Assembly: GCA_031265955.1 (NCBI GenBank)
Contig: JAISBY010000010.1
Location: forward strand, 1-64,000
Direction: 5' to 3'
Length of the DNA stretch: 64,000 bases
Source of the DNA: Mycoplasmataceae bacterium
Lineage (GTDB): Bacteria; Bacillota_I; Bacilli_A; Mycoplasmatales; Mycoplasmoidaceae
The position numbers and the translations under genes were made by a program. Numbering within the stretch: the first letter of the stretch is position 1; every line of letters begins with the position of its first letter. The notes beneath the pieces are model-generated. The model was not told the DNA's origin, searched no databases, and saw only the letters and a program-made list of their open reading frames with translations. Below, in pieces: positions 38,458 to 61,915 of this stretch.

Positions 38458-38950
38458 ATTCAAATAATATGGTCTTTAATACGATCTTATCAATAATTTC
38501 TACGAAATAAAGTGTTTTAAGTCAATATTTTGTTATCCTAAATCGCACCCATTATTCTAGTCTGAGTCATACCACGAAGTTTTTTGAATTAAATTCATGT
38601 TTACCATAGTGTGTTGTTCTTTTACTCAAAGTAAATTTGAGTAATGTTAATATTGCAATTACATTTAGTAGCGTAACATTACCTACATCATAACTAATTA
38701 CGTTATTTTTTTTGAAAATTACGACAAAACCGACTTTGGTACATATGGCTTTTTTCTTTTTAAATCACATACAAATACCCCCCCCTATGCAGAAAATTAA
38801 ATCATATAATATGGCATGCAATCAAATAGGGGGGGGATTAGACGCTATAGTGTTGTTAGCACTAATTTAATCTTCTTTCTAAAAACAAAATTATTACATT
38901 CGTAACGATCTTGTTTTTTTGCTATATATATTCATTAAAAGGAGAAAATT
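38458..38950. other. intergenic region with paired C8 and G8 tracts
   Basis: About 490 nt with no convincing gene. It contains C8TA (38778-38787) and TAG8 (38827-38836), which can pair as a 10-bp GC-dominated stem around a 39-nt AT-rich loop that includes a TATAAT-like sequence. Further down, AAAAACAA ... TTGTTTTTTT (38881-38920) forms a terminator-like stem before the next gene, whose AAAGGAG ribosome site is clear. Confidence 0.55.
38778..38836. repeat. inverted homopolymer pair C8 / G8
   Basis: Eight C at 38778-38785 and eight G at 38829-38836 in opposite orientation, each flanked by TA towards the loop. Both arms are expected to be length-unstable and to form a strong cruciform or RNA hairpin. 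Confidence 0.75.
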
Positions 38951-39867: not shown

Positions 39868-40560
39868 TTAATTTAATCATGGAATTTGTGGAGTTAATTT
39901 TCTCAAATTATTTCATTTTCCACAATATAAGATAGAACCTTTTTCAATTAAAATAACTCAATTTGTTTTTTGCCTAGCCTCATAAATATTGTGGGAGGAT
40001 ATGAAATAGGTAGAATTTCTATGTTTTTTTAAATATTCGAAAAACATAAAACGAATTTTGGGATCAAGATTTGATGTTGGTTCATCCATAATGTTAATTG
40101 GTTTGTCTTCTAATAGTGTATTAATGATTAAAATTAATTGTTTTTCACCATGCGACATTTTTTTGAACGAACTATTTAATAGATTGTTATCAATTTTAAA
40201 AAACTTCAGCAATGAATTTAACATTTTTGAGAAATGAATTTTATCAATTCCATTCAGCATAGCCATTCTTCTTAAAAACGTAATTCCTTTTACAGAATCA
40301 TGAATGTGTTCTTCTGGGCAATAAGCAACAAGATCATGTGACTTTAAATTTTTAGAACAAACTTTGTTTATTAATATTTTACCCTGAAACTGCTTATTGA
40401 TATTCAAAATACTTTTTATTGTTGAAGTTTTGCCAGAACCATTAGCACCAATAAATGCACAAATTTTATTTTTAGGAACATAAAAACTAACATTATCAAG
40501 AACTAATCGTTTCTTATGCCTTACAGTTAGATTTTTAACTGAAATTATTGAATTAGGCAT
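39868..40560 (-). CDS. ABC transporter ATP-binding protein (export type)
   Basis: A 230-residue single ABC domain. Walker A is GANGSGKTS, the signature is MSHGEKQ (a variant of LSGGQ), Walker B is INIMDEPTSNLD, and the switch His is in ISSHN. It works with the membrane subunit encoded 2 nt upstream (40563-41276), as in ABC-2-type exporters of lipids, peptides or drugs. The C-terminus beyond TNW needs UGA as Trp. Its placement among surface genes suggests a role at the envelope, but the substrate is unknown. Confidence 0.88.
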
Positions 40561-40562
40561 TT

Positions 40563-41276
40563 TTATAGCTTCCTTTCCATGGCTATGGTGCCACCTAAAA
40601 TAGCCAATAAAGATAATGGTGGGAAAACGATATTAATAGCAATCGATGCAAAATACATTATGTTTGTTCAATTAGGTATTCCTTGTGTATCAAGCGGAAA
40701 AATCAATTGGAAAATTAAGATATAACACCCCAAGACAAAAAGAGATGCAATAGTTACTATTCCTGTTTTAGCTCAATACCCGAAACTTGTGGAAATTACT
40801 CCAGCACCAATACAAATAACTAAACCAGAAATAATTAGACCAATATAAAATGAAATGTTATTGTTTAAAACAATAATTTGTTGATCAGTTATTAAGAAAT
40901 AAATAATAACGATTACTAAAGATAACGAAACAACTATTGCTGAAATTATGTTTAATATGATTGTTGATAAAATTTTAGAAAATAACAATTGTTTTTTAGT
41001 TGCTTTTTTCGATAAAATGAAATCAATTTCGTAAGTTTCATCATTTATTTCCCCAATAAGTGAACCCAATATTAATAATGAGGCAAAAAATATTGGGACA
41101 TTAATTTCTACGAATAGTGTGCTAGAGTATCAAAATTCCAAACCATTCTTTGAATATATTAATGGAAGAATTAAGGAGATAAAAACATTAATAAAAACTC
41201 CCAAACACAAAAAAATCCAAAATATTTTTTTAAAAATTAGTTTTTGGACTGAATATTTTAGTAGTTTATGAAACAT
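40563..41276 (-). CDS. ABC-2 type transporter permease
   Basis: A 237-residue membrane protein with about six hydrophobic helices. Its charged segment GEINDETYEIDFILSKKATKKQLLFSKILSTII is typical of ABC-2 permeases. It pairs with the ATPase immediately downstream. The ATG lies 7 nt after a TATAAT box whose upstream spacer is an A16/T16 run shared with the divergent lipoprotein gene, so expression probably varies with tract length and the message is probably leaderless. Confidence 0.8.
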
Positions 41277-41283
41277 AAGTAAC

Positions 41284-41312
41284 ATTATAAAAAAAAAAAA
41301 AAAAGTTATACT
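41284..41312. promoter_or_regulatory. divergent promoters sharing an A16 tract
   Basis: TATAAT on the minus strand (41284-41289) serves the ABC permease and TATACT on the plus strand (41307-41312) serves the lipoprotein. The sixteen A at 41289-41304 occupy the spacer region upstream of both -10 boxes. This resembles the poly-A spacer switches of mycoplasma vlp-type genes. Confidence 0.65.
41289..41304. repeat. poly-A run (A16)
   Basis: Sixteen A between divergent -10 boxes; expected to be length-variable. Confidence 0.85.
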
Positions 41313-41347
41313 AATTCCAATGGGAGTGGAGTTGGCTATTAATCATT

Positions 41348-42817
41348 ATGAATTTGAATAAATCAAAGATTTTGACTCCTATTATTATGTCTTTTATTTT
41401 CCTGACCGGGGGGGGTGCTGCATCATTATTATCTTCATGTTCTATCACACAACCATTGCTTCAAGTGGGAGGGGACAATGAAATACAATGATTGCCTAAT
41501 ACGAAAACAGTTGCTACCGCTACATGGTTAGGGTATTCTGGGAATACCATTAAATATTGATACGATTCTCACGGCAATGATGAATATTTTACATTAGATG
41601 ATTCAAATAGAACCGTAAATTCATGACATTTAATTTTTGACATGAAGAATCCGCAAGAAATTACTAATAGTTTCGTTATCTCAGTTTATTTTCAGGTAGA
41701 AAATACCAAGTATATTCAACATCATGATATTAAAATTGACCAATATACTCCACAACCAGAACCAGTAATAATTGGTGATTGAGGGATAAACAAAGGATCT
41801 GATCCAGCGAGTTTTTGCCCCGTTCCTAAAACTGATTTGTCTACAAATAATTCTATTTCGATTTGTTTGGATTATCTTTATGAGATTGGTGACTCTTCTG
41901 ATAAAATTTCTGCAATTTCTAACCAATTGAAAGCAGATTTCACTTACTTTATGAATGAAAGTGTTGACAATATTGCTCATGCAATTATTCTCTACAAATC
42001 GGTGAATTCATACAATTTAAATATTAAATTCGCTTATAACGCTCAGGAAAGATTATTTTCTAGCGCCGAAATTGATGGCACTATAAAATATAATTTAATC
42101 GTAGGCAGTACTGAAGTTGCTTTCCACATTGACCTACACAATTATTTATTTATTGGTGCCTTTAGTGCAAATCATGCTAATTTATCTTACAACGATCCTT
42201 ACAATAACAATAATGGTCACAAAGATTACAGCGGGAATATAACGACAGGAAATTGTTTGGGTTTGAGCCCACTTGATAATGATAGTTTTTATCATTTCAA
42301 AATTAACGGTGGTTCAGGTCTAATCAATATGGAACATACTTATTGCATTAATGCCGTAAAGTTTATTGGCATTGAAGACATCGGTAATGCCGGAAATGAG
42401 GCTGGCATATATGTGAAGAGTTGATATTTAAAAGATATTCAAACAATTTATCCAATTGACCTTTCGCCTATTTTAACACAAACATTAACAATCAATAACT
42501 ATTGGATTCCAGGTGATGTAGATGCATTTTGTGATGAAGATAATGGCAAGGGATGAAACAATAAAAATGTTGATTCTGTAGATAAATTCCAATTATTTGA
42601 TAAGTGTGTAGGAAGCGAATGAAGAAACATTGTTATTCAATATGCTGATGGCAAATCAATTACTCTAGATTATCGACAAATTTTTGACAAAATTTGAGCT
42701 TGAAAGGATGGTAATAGTGTTTCAATAAATGTTTTTCCATCCTATTATTTTTATATTAACGATTCATGATTTTACAGCTACACTTCACAAAATATAATCT
42801 TCAATAATAGCCCTTAA
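41348..42817 (+). CDS. phase-variable lipoprotein (ON) with G8 in its signal peptide
   Basis: 489 residues. The signal peptide has a basic start, a hydrophobic core and the lipobox SLLSSC with the lipidated Cys at residue 31, the clearest lipobox in the window. A G8 run (41408-41415) encodes Gly21-Gly23 inside the signal peptide and the frame is intact, so the gene is ON; one base more or less would stop synthesis before the mature protein. The mature part is Asn/Asp/Trp-rich with no recognised domain. The promoter contains an A16 tract, so transcription and translation may both switch. A surface antigen role is inferred. Confidence 0.82.
41408..41415. repeat. homopolymer G8 in lipoprotein signal peptide (in frame)
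   Basis: Eight G at codons 21-23 of the lipoprotein gene. The current length keeps the frame open (ON). Confidence 0.88.
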
Positions 42818-42830
42818 TGGGTTATCTGAA

Positions 42831-43794
42831 CTATGCTCACAAACCGTTAATATCAAATTTTCACAAACTTTGAAAAGGATCACCAGTTAATAAACAAATA
42901 GCACCAAAGTAAATCATTCCACCCGCTAAAATTGATGAACATAAAATAAACAATATTATGAAAGTAATTCTTGTTGCGGGACGATCTTGATAGATTTTTT
43001 TACCTTTCGCCATTTTGTAAATAGTTTGATTGGGTAATATGGCATGCATTTTTAGAATTCATCATTCATTCATAGACTCAAAGAAATTATTTCATTTTCA
43101 AAATCGTACTACTGCATAACACAATAAAACAATAACCATTGCGGTAAAAATATCCACAATATAGTGCTGTCTTACAAATAAGACGGAAAGAGATACTAAG
43201 ACAAACATTATTCCTGTTACTAAAATCATCCAACAATTATTCTTTTTGTTTTTCTCAGTTTTGTTCCAACAAGCAACAAAGGGTAAAAAAGTACATAACA
43301 CATGAAAAGATGGCGCAAGATTATCGGGAAGGTCGTTTTCATAAACCATTGTATTCATAATATTTCATAATGGTTTGTCTTTATAAGTTTGAATATTAGA
43401 ATAATCAATATAGCTCATTTTGGATGGTAGAATTACCAACCAACAAAAACCGATAATTTGAGTGAATAAAGTGGCGGCAACAAATTGATAAAAAACTTTT
43501 TTGCCCATTATGCCATATATGACGAACGGAATGGCAATTCAATAGAAATACGACAAAATATAGGGAATTACAAAGAAAGATACAAAAGGTATTTGATGAT
43601 CAATTGGTAGACTCCAATCAAAAAAACTATGGCCATTAGCAAAAACTGTATGTGTAATTAATCTAGCCAATAGGTATCAAAAACGGTTGAATGCCAATAG
43701 TAATCCTGGCATTAAAATAACAATGATATGATTTTTTAATCATAATCAAAATTTTTTATGTTTGACGGGGGGGGGATAAAAAGGTTTTACTCAT
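42831..43794 (-). CDS. PAP2-superfamily membrane phosphatase, out of frame at a C9 tract
   Basis: An ATG at 43794 starts a frame that meets nine C on the coding strand (43775-43767) at codon 7 and then stops within a few codons. With eight C it would read on as a 320-residue polytopic membrane protein. The body shows PAP2 motifs: LAPSFHVLCTF (PSxxH) and FVRQHYIVDIF (RxxxHxxxD). It would act on lipid phosphates or pyrophosphates, or transfer head groups. The ATG overlaps the end of the MBL hydrolase gene by 8 nt. It is currently OFF; an internal start after the tract is possible but unattractive. Confidence 0.72.
43767..43775. repeat. homopolymer G9 (C9 on coding strand), frame-breaking in PAP2 gene
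   Basis: Nine bases where eight would fuse the start codon to the PAP2 reading frame. It lies at codons 7-9. Confidence 0.85.
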
Positions 43795-44485: not shown

Positions 44486-44992
44486 ATGAGTGATACAAAT
44501 AGTGGTTCATTGGCTTGTGAGACATGCAAGACAAATGATACTTTTGATATTTTTACTATCAAAGTTAAAGAAATTAAGGCTAAAAACGGTACTAAATTAA
44601 TGGCGTTACAAGAGGCACAAGTACAATTTGGCTATCTTGATAAAGATGCGATGAATATTGTTGCTAATGTATTTGAAACAACTACCAGCGAGATTTATTC
44701 CATTGCTTCTTTTTATGCTCAATTTAAATTTGTAAAACAAGGTAAGTATCGAATTGCGCTTTGTTTAGGAACGGCTTGTTATGTTAGAGGTGCTTCCAAA
44801 ATTCAACAAAAATTAGAAGAAGTATTACAATTAAAAATGGGCGAAACATCCAAAGATGGTAAGTTTACTTTAGGTAGCGCTAGATGTGTTGGTTGTTGTG
44901 GATTGGCTCCGGTAATGTTAATTAATGAAAAAGTTTATCCTGCGGTAAAACCTGAACAAGTGCCAGATATTATTAATGAATACAACGACTAA
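44486..44992 (+). CDS. hydC: NADH-dependent [FeFe] hydrogenase, gamma subunit (NuoE/HydC-like)
   Basis: A 168-residue thioredoxin-like [2Fe-2S] protein of the NuoE family. The four cluster cysteines are in CLGTAC (about 93 and 98) and CVGCC (about 134-138). A helical N-terminal part (LMALQEAQVQFGYLDKDAM) matches the NuoE fold. An additional CETC pair near residues 11-14 is unusual. It passes electrons between the flavin subunit and the hydrogenase. First gene of the three-gene operon; CGGAG lies 8-12 nt before the ATG. The next gene starts 8 nt after its stop. Confidence 0.92.
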   Translation: MSDTNSGSLACETCKTNDTFDIFTIKVKEIKAKNGTKLMALQEAQVQFGYLDKDAMNIVANVFETTTSEIYSIASFYAQFKFVKQGKYRIALCLGTACYVRGASKIQQKLEEVLQLKMGETSKDGKFTLGSARCVGCCGLAPVMLINEKVYPAVKPEQVPDIINEYND

Positions 44993-45000
44993 GGATAGTT

Positions 45001-46881
45001 ATGAGCAAAATGACAATTGAACAATTAAATAAAATTAAAGATGAATTCAAAAAAAATATTGAGCAACGTAAAATCCACCAAGAAGCTAGTTATCAAGGTA
45101 AATTCCAAGTCTTAGTTTGTGCATCCACTGGATGTATATCCAATAAATCCTTATTAGTTTTAGAAAGATTTTCTAAAAAAGTTAAAGAGGCAGGATTATC
45201 GGATCAAGTGGATATAGTACAAACAGGATGCCATGGATTATGTGAAATGGGTCCTGTCGTAATTGTATACCCACAAGGTGCATTCTATGCCAAAGTATCG
45301 GTTGATGATGTTGATAAAATTGTAGAGCAACATTTAAAAAACAATCAAATCGTTAAAGAAAAATTATTTTGAGAATCATTTCAAAATGATAAATTAGTTC
45401 CCTTAGATCAAACTGGATTCTACAAAAAACAAATTCGTATCGCATTAAGAAATTCTGGATTAATCAATCCCGAAAGAATTGAAGAATATATTGCGACTGA
45501 TGGGTATCAAGCTTTGTGAAAATCTTTAAATATGAGCCGTGAAGACGTTATTAAAATTGTTAAAGACTCAGGTTTAAGAGGCCGAGGTGGCGGCGGCTTT
45601 TCTACTGGGACTAAATGGGAATTAGCATATAAAGCTGCTGGTAAGAAGAAATACGTGTGCTGTAACGGTGATGAAGGTGATCCAGGAGCTTTTATGGATC
45701 GTTCTATTTTGGAGGCGGACCCCCATGCTATTATTGAAGCAATGGCAATTGCAGCATATGCAATTGGGGCAGACGAAGGTTATATTTACGTTCGTGCCGA
45801 ATATCCAGTCGCAGTTAAACGTTTAGAGATTGCTATTAAACAAGCAAATAAGCTAGGATTACTAGGACGTAATATTTTTGGGAAAGATTTTAACTTCAAA
45901 TTAACCATCCGTTTAGGAAGTGGCGCTTTCGTTTGTGGTGAAGAAACTGCCCTAATGACTTCAGTTGAAGGTAATCGTGGTGAACCAAGACCAAGACCTC
46001 CGTATCCAGCGAATCAAGGATTGTATAAATGCCCTACGATTTTAAACAATGTTGAGACATATGCTAATATTTCCAGCATTATTAATAAAGGGGCACAATG
46101 ATTTGCTTCAATCGGAACTGCCAAATCAAAAGGAACTAAAGTATTTGCATTAGGCGGCAAAATTAAAAATACTGGACTCATTGAAGTTCCGATGGGAATT
46201 ACGCTTCGTGAAATTATTTATGACATTGGTGGTGGCATTTTGAATAATGGTAAATTTAAAGCAGCACAAACCGGTGGTCCTTCTGGCGGATGTATTCCTA
46301 ATGAATTAATCGATACGCCAATTGACTACGATAATTTATTGGCAATCGGTTCCATGATGGGTTCAGGTGGTTTAATCGTTATGGATGAATCATCTTGTAT
46401 GGTGGATATTTGCAAATTTTATATGGAATTTTGTGCCGATGAATCATGTGGTAAATGTGTGCCGTGCCGGATTGGTAACAAACGCTTGTTAGAACTATTA
46501 ATTGACATTACTGAAAGTAGAGGTAAAGCTGGTGATATCGAAAGATTAGAATCATTATGTCAACACATTAAGGCTACTTCACTATGTGGTTTAGGTCAAA
46601 CTTCACCAAATCCAATTCTTTCCACCATTCGCTATTTTAGACCAGAATATGATGCGCATGTACTAGAACATCGTTGCCCAGCAGGAGTGTGCAGCAAATT
46701 ATTACAGTATCGTATCGTTCCTGAATTATGTAAGAAATGCTCGTTATGTGCAAGAACTTGCCCGGTGAAAGCTATTAGTGGTGAAGTTGGTAAAACACCT
46801 TATGTGATTGATCAAAGTAAATGTATTAAGTGTGGTGCTTGTATGGGTGCATGCAAGTTTAAGGCGATTGAAAGAAAATAG
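45001..46881 (+). CDS. hydB: NADH-dependent [FeFe] hydrogenase, beta subunit (NuoF/HydB-like)
   Basis: 626 residues with the layout of Thermotoga-type HydB and Desulfovibrio HndC. An N-terminal [2Fe-2S] domain is followed by the NuoF flavin domain ([43 protein letters not shown]) that binds FMN and NAD(H), then a [4Fe-4S] site ([12 protein letters not shown] ... C). A C-terminal two-cluster ferredoxin domain carries [12 protein letters not shown] and [11 protein letters not shown]. It oxidises NADH and, in bifurcating relatives, couples to ferredoxin. An AAGGATAGTT site precedes the ATG. Confidence 0.94.
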
Positions 46882-46889
46882 GAGTACTT

Positions 46890-48632
46890 ATGGAAAAAAT
46901 GATAAATTTAAAAATTGATGGTATTCAAGTTAGTGTTCCACAAGGTTCAACTATTTTAGACGCTGCAAACCAAGCTAATGTGCGTATCCCTACATTATGT
47001 TTTTTAAAGAAGATTAATGCCATTGGCGCATGTCGTATTTGTTTGGTAGAAGTTAAAAATATGAGGCCATTAGTTGCAGCGTGTGTCTACCCAGCTAGTG
47101 AAGGCATGGAAGTATTGACTCATACACCACGTGCGAATAAAGCACGTAAAATTAATTTGGAATTAATTCTATCTGCACACGTGAAAAATTGTCTATCTTG
47201 TACTAAATCAATGTCTTGTGAATTGCAAAAATTATCGCTAGAATATGGTTGCAATGAAAATCATTTTAAAGGAGCGATGCCTGAAAGAATTGTTGATAAT
47301 TCTTCACCATCTATTATTCGTGATTCTCAAAAATGTATTTTATGCAAACGTTGTAAAGCGGCTTGTTACGAAACTCAAGATGTTAAAGTGATTGCTGTTA
47401 ACAAACGAGGTTTCGAAAGTTATTTAGGTTGTGCTTACGGCGTTGAAATTAATGATACAGCTTGCGTTGCTTGTGGTCAATGTACATTAGTTTGTCCGAC
47501 TGGAGCGTTAATGGTTAAAAACGACATTGATAAAGTTTTGAATGCATTGAATAATCCGGAATTAACGGTAGTTGTAGCGCCCGCGCCATCAGTGCGCGTG
47601 GGAATTGCTGAAGAATTTGGTGAACCAGTTGGTACTAATGCTGAAGGACGTCTAGTAACTGCTTTACGAATGTTGGGATTCCATAAAGTTTTTGATATTG
47701 ATTTTGCTGCTGATTTAACCATTATGGAAGAAGCGAACGAATTAGTTGAGCGAATTCAAAACAAAGGAGTCCTTCCGATGATGACTTCTTGTTCACCAGG
47801 ATGAGTAAATTTTTTGACTGCTTATCATCCTGATATGATTTCTCATTTATCAACTGCAAAATCACCGCAGCAAATGTTCGGTGCTACTGTAAAAACTTTC
47901 TGGGCTGAAAAAAATAAATTAGATCCAAGTAAAATATTTATCGCAACAATTATGCCGTGTACTGCTAAGAAACATGAAATTCTTCGCAAGAAAGATACAC
48001 ACCAAAATACACCAGATATTGATGCGGTATTAACAGTACGTGAGTTGGGAATCTTATTAAAACGCCAGGGTATTAACTTTAACAAACTACAAAATTCTCG
48101 ATTTGATGATCCACTTGGCGAATCAACTGGAGCTGGTGTTATTTTTGGGGTAACAGGTGGCGTCATGGAAGCTGCATTAAGAACAGCAGCCGATACTCTG
48201 ACTGGTCAATCATTAAAAAACATTGATTACAAAAAGGTTCGTGGTATTAAAGGTATTAAAGAAGCAACGGTTGATATTAATGGTGCAAAAATTAATGTTT
48301 GTGCAGCGAGCGGATTAGCTAACGCTCAAAAAGTATTGGAAGACGTTAAAAGTGGCAAAAAACAATATCACTTTATTGAAATCATGGCTTGTCCAGGTGG
48401 GTGTGTAAACGGTGGTGGCATGCCTATTCATGATCCTAATATAGTTTCTTTTGAAGAACGTGCTAAAATACGGGCAAAGTCCATTTATAAAGAAGACGAA
48501 CGTAAAACAATTCGCAAGTCACACGAAAATACTCAAATCATTCAATTGTATAAAGAGTATTTTGGTAAACCTGGCAGTCACAAAGCTCATGAAGTATTGC
48601 ATACATCATTTGATAAACGCAGGTTTGTATAG
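46890..48632 (+). CDS. hydA: [FeFe] hydrogenase catalytic subunit (HydA-like)
   Basis: 580 residues that produce or consume H2 at an H-cluster. From the N-terminus: a [2Fe-2S] ferredoxin-like domain (CFLKKINAIGACRIC), a His/Cys cluster site (HVKNCLSCTKSMSC), two [4Fe-4S] motifs (CILCKRCKAAC, CVACGQCTLVCP), then the H-cluster motifs L1 TSCSPGW (Ser in place of the second Cys of TSCCPxW), L2 MPCTAKKHE and L3 EIMACPGGCVNGGGMP. A C-terminal small-subunit-like tail is fused (EERAKIRAKSIYKED). Maturases HydE, HydF and HydG must lie elsewhere. AGGAG lies before the ATG. A strong terminator follows. Hydrogenases are very unusual in mollicutes. Confidence 0.95.
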
Positions 48633-59653: not shown

Positions 59654-61844
59654 TTATGGTACTACCGTTACATAAATATCAAAATATACGTAAAAATAAC
59701 CTGAGTATCAATAACGAAGTTTTCCATGAAATTCACCAGCCATTCTTACTGCAGTTAATTCTAATGTCACCACTCCTTGGTTTGATTGCAGAGTAGCAGT
59801 TACTGCTGTAGAATCAGGAAGTCATGCTCAGGTACCGGTAGTAAAAGTTTGATCTCCTATAGTGTTATATTTTACTGAACATGTTGAACCAATCGTCATG
59901 CCAAAATGTATACCATCGGTTGTTGCTGTTTCAGGTATAGCAGAATTATTAACATAACTAATACTGTATGGAGCACTAAGACTTTCTTGCATTACGATTG
60001 TCGTTTGGACAGTAGTTGTTTCATATTCACTGTACGAAAATGTGATTGACAAATTAAAATTTTTAGTTTTATTAATGGTTCCAGGAACTAAAATTTGCAT
60101 AGTATTTTGGTTTTGATTATAAATCGTAATATCACCATTATCATCATGGGTGTCGCCAGACAATTTTCATATTCCATATCTGTCAGTAGCAGGATTTGTA
60201 TTGTTGAATGTAAGCACATTCCCGTCTAGTCCCCCATACATACTTGTGCTTGGAGGGCCACTAATTATTGGTGTAGTAAGTGGAATAATATTTAATGTAA
60301 CAATCATTGTAGCAACCATTCCAATTGTACTAACGGTATATGTAATAGTAATTGTATGAATGCCAATTGTTGCAACATTAGTTCAATTTAACGTTCCGTT
60401 AGTGAATGTTACACCATTGCCAGTTCCAGTAGCACTCCATACTCCACCACTTGTAGCATTAGTATAGACGTGGCTACCATCTATTGTTTGGTGCCCATCT
60501 ATGTAATTTCGTCCGATAATTGGAGTAGTATCAAATGGCGCAACATCAAGCAAACATGTTGTTGAAATATTTGATTGTCTATTATCTGAAATAGTTATAG
60601 TTTTGTTACCTGCTGTTAAATTTGAAGAGGTTGCACCTAAAGTGAGCAAAAAATAATCTCCACTCACAGTCATTTGTGTAGTCAAACCAGTGGCCCCTGT
60701 AATTGTAAAATTATTAATAGTAGTAGTGGTTAAATAATTAATTGTCTGAACTTTAACCGTAGCATCAGAAGTAGTATTTCCAACTTGAAGACTGTTAGTT
60801 TGAACAATAGCTTGTAATTTTCTTGCTGGAGCAATAGACAAATCAAATTCTAATTCAGTATTATCAGAGCCAATAATTGTAATGTGGATCGGATCGTTTG
60901 ATACTAGCGAAGTGGTTTCCGTTAATGTTAAAATTACATTCTGGTCAGTCGCATCGCTAAATTGACCTGAAATTAGTGCTGTACTTACTGAAAAACTCAT
61001 TTCAGAAATTGGCGCATCATTTACTGCTGTAATTTTAATTACAGCAGTAGAATCAACATTATCAACTTGAAGATTGTTAGATTGTATTTCGAAATTATAA
61101 AATTTAGTGGCATCAACTTTTTGAATTACGAATGTTGTGATGGAAGTGAAATTTTCATAATTTAATTCAGCAGTTATTGTGTCAGGCAAAGCATTGTTTG
61201 TTAAAGTTAAAGTAAACATTGCTTGGTCATTAGTTGGAGGTGCTAACACTATGCTAACATATGCGCTAGCATCAGTGCCCGTTCCATTTTTCAATGTCAA
61301 ATTACTTGTACTAATATTCAATAAGTTAGCCCCGTTATAACCGTTAGCAGTTAGGGTGATTTGATTATCAACGCCTGTTCCTTTACCTATTTGCATTTTA
61401 CCAGTAGTCTCTAAATTAAATGCACTTCTTTCTTTTACCAAGAAATCGGTATATTTAGTATCTATACCAACAGTTATGGCAATTTGGTAAGTGCCAGCCA
61501 TAATTTCTTTATAAGTTTCTGGGATTGTTACAGTTAATGTACTAATTAATCCATTAGTTACTATTTGATCAATCTGAAATAACTGGTTACATTCAATTTC
61601 ATCTTTAAAAAAATTAATTTTAGGTTCAACTCAATTTGAAGTTAAAGATTCAGTAATTCTAATTTGCATTGAACTGTTAGGATCGTATTCCCTTAAGTTA
61701 TCATTGCTGATTTCTATATTAAAACTAATGTGATGAGTAACTGAATTATTGGCAAGGATATTAGTGCCAACTACTACGCCTGTCGCCCCCCCCCGTTGTT
61801 GCTATTGCTGCTACTGCAATAGCCAATTTGGTTTTTAAAGCCAT
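59654..61844 (-). CDS. large phase-variable surface protein F with beta-repeat domains, currently out of frame
   Basis: The ATG at 61844 opens MALKTKLAIAVAAIATTGG, a signal peptide interrupted by nine G on the coding strand (61794-61786). As sequenced it stops after about 28 codons; with eight G the frame runs on for about 729 residues. The body is Thr/Asn/Ser/Ile-rich with repeated beta-sandwich-like units of about 90 residues (LQVDNVDSTAVIKITAVNDA and LQVGNTTSDATVKVQTINY are related), like bacterial Ig-like surface repeats. GGGAG precedes the ATG. The promoter has a T17 spacer, so both transcription and translation may switch. OFF as sequenced. Confidence 0.78.
61786..61794. repeat. homopolymer C9 (G9 on coding strand), frame-breaking in surface protein F
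   Basis: Nine bases at codons 17-20 of the surface protein. Eight would restore the full frame. Confidence 0.87.
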
Positions 61845-61887
61845 TTTTATTTCTCCCATAGACAAATTAATAACAAATTATATTAAC

Positions 61888-61915
61888 AATATAAAAAAAA
61901 AAAAAAAAACAAGAA
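61888..61915 (-). promoter_or_regulatory. promoter of surface protein F with poly-T spacer
   Basis: On the minus strand TTCTTG (61915-61910) and TATATT (61893-61888) flank a run of 17 T (A17 on the plus strand, 61893-61909). The spacer is 16 nt, so each added or lost T changes promoter geometry directly. Confidence 0.62.

Follow-up and report, generated by a model that had tools for sequence, protein, structure and literature searches.

A putative two-tier phase-variation locus joining a lipoprotein gene to a divergent ABC-2-type exporter in an uncultured Mycoplasmataceae bacterium

Switching of surface proteins by unstable repeats is well documented, and each part of the locus described here has a precedent (vlp, hifA/hifB, P68/P48-like, P78). 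In Haemophilus influenzae, a (TA)9-11 repeat lies in the promoter that hifA and hifB share (van Ham 1993, described in PMC2651432). The vlp genes of Mycoplasma hyorhinis, which encode surface lipoproteins, have poly-A promoters (Citti and Wise 1995, described in PMC10502178). Mycoplasma bovis P68 and the M. agalactiae P48-like protein are lipoproteins with poly-G at the 5' end (PMC2824730), and P78 of Mycoplasma fermentans is a selectively switching lipoprotein encoded in an ABC operon (Theiss and Wise 1997, cited in PMC2831843). Pseudo-symmetric bidirectional promoters, in which divergent transcription arises from symmetric -10 sequences, have also been described (Warman, PMC12825309). Among uncultured mycoplasmas, Ca. 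M. girerdii shows repeat variation at the population level; its nearest cloned 16S sequences were obtained from rumen and termite gut (PMC5476646). We found no report in the open-licence literature of these elements in combination, or of a single lipoprotein-exporter family that has acquired switches repeatedly, and such a report may exist elsewhere.

The 64 kb window analysed here lies at the start of contig C3, in a 0.98 Mb genome in which TGA encodes Trp. On the plus strand it carries a lipoprotein gene of 489 aa (41348..42817, from the list of open reading frames), a member of a family represented in the genus by 30 homologs. On the minus strand lie an ABC-2-like permease gene (40563..41276) and the exporter's ABC ATPase gene of 230 aa (39868..40560). 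The first possible ATG of the permease is at 41285, and the homolog alignment favours ATG 41276 (MFHKLLKYS...) as the likely start. Two homopolymers mark the locus, an A16 tract between the divergent genes and a G8 tract near the 5' end of the lipoprotein gene.

Translation of 41348-42817 with TGA as Trp gives the N-terminus MNLNKSKILTPIIMSFIFLT-GGG-AASLLSSC, so that the G8 tract (41408..41415, plus strand) falls in codons 21-23 and the lipobox cysteine (41438..41440, plus strand) is codon 31. The sequence (MNLNKSKI...LSSC) combines a basic n-region, a hydrophobic stretch and a lipobox Cys, as in bacterial lipoproteins, and the Cys is invariant among 20 homologs. The sequence-only reading had placed G8 in the signal peptide upstream of Cys31 and called the gene ON; the translation agrees with this position, and the in-frame ORF with the present state. 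It had further held that any slip abolishes the mature protein, which is right for slips of one or two bases but not for multiples of three. Specifically, slips of +/-1 or +/-2 yield in silico peptides of 49-61 aa that lack the lipobox, while slips of +/-3 keep the frame and are tolerated, with 488 aa at G5 and 490 aa at G11. Taking homopolymer lengths as the consensus of the metagenome assembly, the genome has 13 signal-peptide tracts, eight ON and five OFF. As in P68 and the P48-like protein, where G8-G10 at the 5' coding end sets the frame of signal peptide and lipobox, poly-G upstream of the lipobox here determines by sequence the lipobox frame; the protein family, however, is not recognisably the same, and neither a partner exporter nor a promoter tract is described for those proteins. 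The locus also resembles P78 in that a homopolymer frameshift selectively affects a lipoprotein encoded with an ABC transporter, but P78 has poly-A in an operon, whereas here poly-G is combined with a divergent promoter.

Similar tracts occur at other genes of the window. At 61786-61909, a T17 upstream of a gene accompanies a G9 in its signal-anchor region, by which the gene is now OFF and would be ON at G8. The PAP2-family gene neighbouring the lipoprotein locus carries C9 on its coding strand at the 5' end (43767-43775); it is in frame at C8 and therefore apparently OFF, provided that translation begins at the upstream start.

The A16 tract (41289..41304, unstranded) is flanked directly by the -10 boxes of the divergent genes, as the sequence-only reading had stated. 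On the minus strand, the exporter box TATAAT (41289-41284, i.e. 41284..41289) is followed after 7 nt by the permease ATG 41276; on the plus strand, the box TATACT (41307..41312) lies 35 nt before the lipoprotein ATG. These outward-facing boxes are exactly 17 bp apart with A16 in between, and therefore each occupies the other's -35 position. Neither promoter has a good -35 hexamer by sequence inspection or promoter scan; the sole match of the scan was chance-like and inside a gene, and viral contigs searched with the promoter DNA gave no match. In this genome the distance from -10 box to first ATG peaks at 6-11 nt, so that leaderless or nearly leaderless starts look common. By the rule for Mycoplasma gallisepticum, a 6-nt spacer with a purine start, or one base further when a pyrimidine is met (PMC4245973), transcripts are predicted to begin at 41276, the A of the permease ATG, and at 41319. 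An ORF of 13 codons, MGVELAINHYEFE (41320..41361, plus strand), begins 1 nt past the latter position and overlaps the lipoprotein start; it may be due to chance.

As in hifA/hifB, a single repeat separates two divergent genes that are functionally linked, and it may here likewise occupy the spacers of the two promoters; the -10 boxes of the present locus leave a 17-bp gap and have no good -35 hexamers. hifA/hifB differs in its dinucleotide repeat and mapped promoters, in contrast to an A16, unclear -35 boxes and a second tract in coding sequence here. As at the vlp genes, a homopolymeric run of A lies in the promoter region of a gene for a surface lipoprotein, here next to its -10 box, but vlp genes are one-directional, encoding size-variant antigens, whereas this A tract is shared with a divergent exporter. 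In the relatives G002 and G012 the divergent layout is kept with interlocked -10 boxes and without an A tract, which fits the divergent, symmetric -10 sequences of the Warman promoters; here, in contrast, the boxes stand 17 bp apart with the A tract between them. The block A16-G-TATACT recurs at C5:36567, before a small membrane-protein gene followed by a permease that we take to be FtsX-like. Across the genus, 12 sites spread over 7 genomes have A12+ no more than 6 nt ahead of TATAMT, as against matches to the reversed pattern in 2 genomes.

Neither A16 nor G8 is a product of chance; both repeats are longer than chance would give, as is typical of contingency loci. No A run in the window is 9 to 15 long: below this gap the lengths go up to 8, and above it they are 16, 17 and 19. 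Its G runs of at least 8 number five, against 0.05 expected. Genome-wide, A runs of at least 9 are depleted (18 observed, ~204 expected), and yet 7 of the 18 reach at least 14, where 0.17 are expected (P 2e-10). The 0.98 Mb genome has 67 G8+ tracts, and for three of the seven long A tracts one of these is found at a distance of at most 130 bp (P 2e-4). The three A/G tract pairs are the studied locus, 61893/61786, and C3:300117/300157.

Other poly-G tracts of the genome lie in different settings. About eight members of a short-element family (window 38778-38836; L015 1558, L017 1282, L022 1758, L033 1620, L036 6894, L038 1683, L055 2087) share, in this order, TATAAT, ATGCAATCAAATA, G8-G10 and a conserved 3' part extending to near GCACTAATTTAATC; they are apparently noncoding and possibly represent switchable small RNAs or a mobile element. 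At L021 1609, L023 1536 and L056 1497, G8-G9 stands between -35-like and TATAAT boxes, and these are possible promoter-spacer switches. Four related G8-G10 tracts with near-identical flanks lie in a 5 kb stretch on L040 (2189, 3791, 5372, 6530) and probably belong to a repeated gene family.

The divergent genes encode an ABC exporter, as had been claimed from the sequence: the ATPase matches Pfam ABC_tran (E 1.1e-19), with ABCA- and DrrA-type ATPases closest in a profile search, and some permease homologs match ABC-2 families (ABC2_membrane_3, E 8e-8). For the permease encoded in the window itself Pfam gave no match, so that an ABC ATPase domain is paired here with a permease assigned to ABC-2 through its homologs. 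The lipoprotein has no credible Pfam match, profile searches of the PDB with permease and lipoprotein gave nothing credible, and a single-sequence fold of the lipoprotein was uninformative (mean pLDDT 33). Its homologs share 17-30% identity; full-length members were seen only in this genus, and a scan of named genomes with the lipoprotein query gave no match. Permease and ATPase stand beside a lipoprotein homolog at 14/21 loci, in varied order and orientation, and at 5/5 loci of a later check set, giving 19/26 loci of the genus. Judged by gene neighbourhood, the divergent exporter is the lipoprotein's conserved partner, a point overlooked by the sequence-only reading. Fast divergence together with a lipid anchor suggests a surface-exposed role for the module. 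At 44486-48632 the window holds genes resembling those for NuoE/NuoF and iron hydrogenase, an unusual content in a mycoplasma; the NuoF-like protein shares 92% identity with its counterpart in MAGs named Mycoplasmataceae bacterium, and outside the lineage its closest relatives are clostridial MAGs (~67%).

Repeats recur in the lipoprotein family. For 25 homologs, simple repeats were counted up to 130 bp from the 5' end: these 6.5 kb contain 10, whereas the surrounding 172 kb contain 17, an enrichment of ~15 times (P 2e-9) under boundaries chosen after inspection of the data. Eight of the 25 genes bear a repeat, and the kinds differ among the genomes, each of which represents one species: this genome has A16+G8, G009 has tandem genes with G8 and with T18+G8, G001 has A18, G018 has a coding A13 and also (TA)8, G016 has a coding A17, and G008 has (GT)25. 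One homolog in G009 has the same two-tier layout, with T18-GA-TATAAT-7 nt-GTG and a G8 in the signal peptide. Five lipoprotein loci fetched later have no repeat at their 5' ends, a count compatible with 8 of 25 yet one that tempers the claim of recurrence. The proposal that the closest lipoprotein homologs are repeat-free was rejected on the finding of (TA)10 at the permease start in G019. Module genes as a whole contain 9 G tracts of at least 8 where 2.2 are expected (P 5e-4). In the second module of this genome (G000), the -10 box of the permease is preceded by a G8, and the ATPase gene carries an in-frame G9 (ON); in G027 the ATPase tract at the matching site is G8 and out of frame (OFF), with G9 before the permease.

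Could G8 be the sole switch, with A16 a fixed element of bent or UP-like DNA that offsets the absent -35 boxes and works largely regardless of its exact length? Mycoplasma promoters mostly lack -35 boxes and lie in A/T-rich DNA (PMC4245973), and A12+ runs before -10 boxes elsewhere in the genus fit such an element. However, A runs of 9-15 are almost absent whereas those of 16-19 are present, runs as long as A16 are expected to be unstable, and vlp promoters switch by A-tract length (PMC10502178), all of which makes a fixed A16 rather unlikely. Long A runs are depleted tenfold instead of being abundant, and the repeats cluster at lipoprotein 5' ends. Both observations argue against a lineage with loose homopolymer control whose tracts are neutral or remnants of mutation and are simply tolerated by lipoprotein genes; we give this explanation very little credence, even though many of the 67 G8+ tracts are intergenic or in ordinary genes, e.g. 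FtsH-like.

The sequence-only reading had proposed that A16 may set the expression of the two genes in opposite directions. In such a scheme a change in A count would favour one gene at the expense of the other, with two polymerases competing for one site. Polymerase binding would indeed be mutually exclusive, since each -10 box is the other's -35 position, but at bidirectional promoters of E. coli basal initiation is reported to be too low for competition (PMC12825309). Furthermore, any change in a shared A16 spacer is equal for both genes, the tract being symmetric in the two putative spacers as in hifA/hifB, and lipoprotein and exporter genes are conserved partners. Opposite control found no support and appears improbable; given the symmetric position and the conserved partnership, it is more plausible that both genes rise or fall together.

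We therefore favour, with a probability of about 0.6, a two-tier contingency (phase-variation) locus, in which a conserved module of fast-diverging lipoprotein and ABC-2-type exporter would be tuned as a whole by A16 and the lipoprotein gated by G8. This reading draws on the directly observed positions of tracts longer than chance and their effects on frame, the ON/OFF mixture, the conserved partnership and the recurrence of varied 5'-end repeats, together with the layout in G009, the two states of the ATPase tract and the genus-wide A12+ runs before -10 boxes. It is weakened by the missing -35 boxes, the promoters of G002 and G012, the five repeat-free loci, the post hoc enrichment boundaries and the consensus nature of the homopolymer lengths. 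In the first tier, we infer that A16 slips in vivo and alters the spacing and context of the two -10 boxes, so that its length would tune transcription of both genes, most likely in parallel. In the second tier, a G8 slip of 1 or 2 bases, if it occurs in the cell as the frame test supposes, would break the signal peptide, with the lipoprotein alone lost and the exporter still expressed. The population would then mix cells with both, with the exporter only, or with little of either. More tentatively, and at somewhat less than even odds, the homopolymer may serve as a slippery hinge in a pseudo-symmetric bidirectional promoter that tunes lipoprotein and exporter, a second homopolymer gating the lipoprotein alone; such a hinge may stem from an A tract entering an interlocked -10 promoter like those of G002 and G012.

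If the two-tier reading is true, one surface module would be switched at two levels, its partner exporter included, and one lipoprotein-exporter family of an uncultured genus would repeatedly gain switches from different repeats. Such repeated gain would point to strong selection for variable display of the module towards a host or protist partner.
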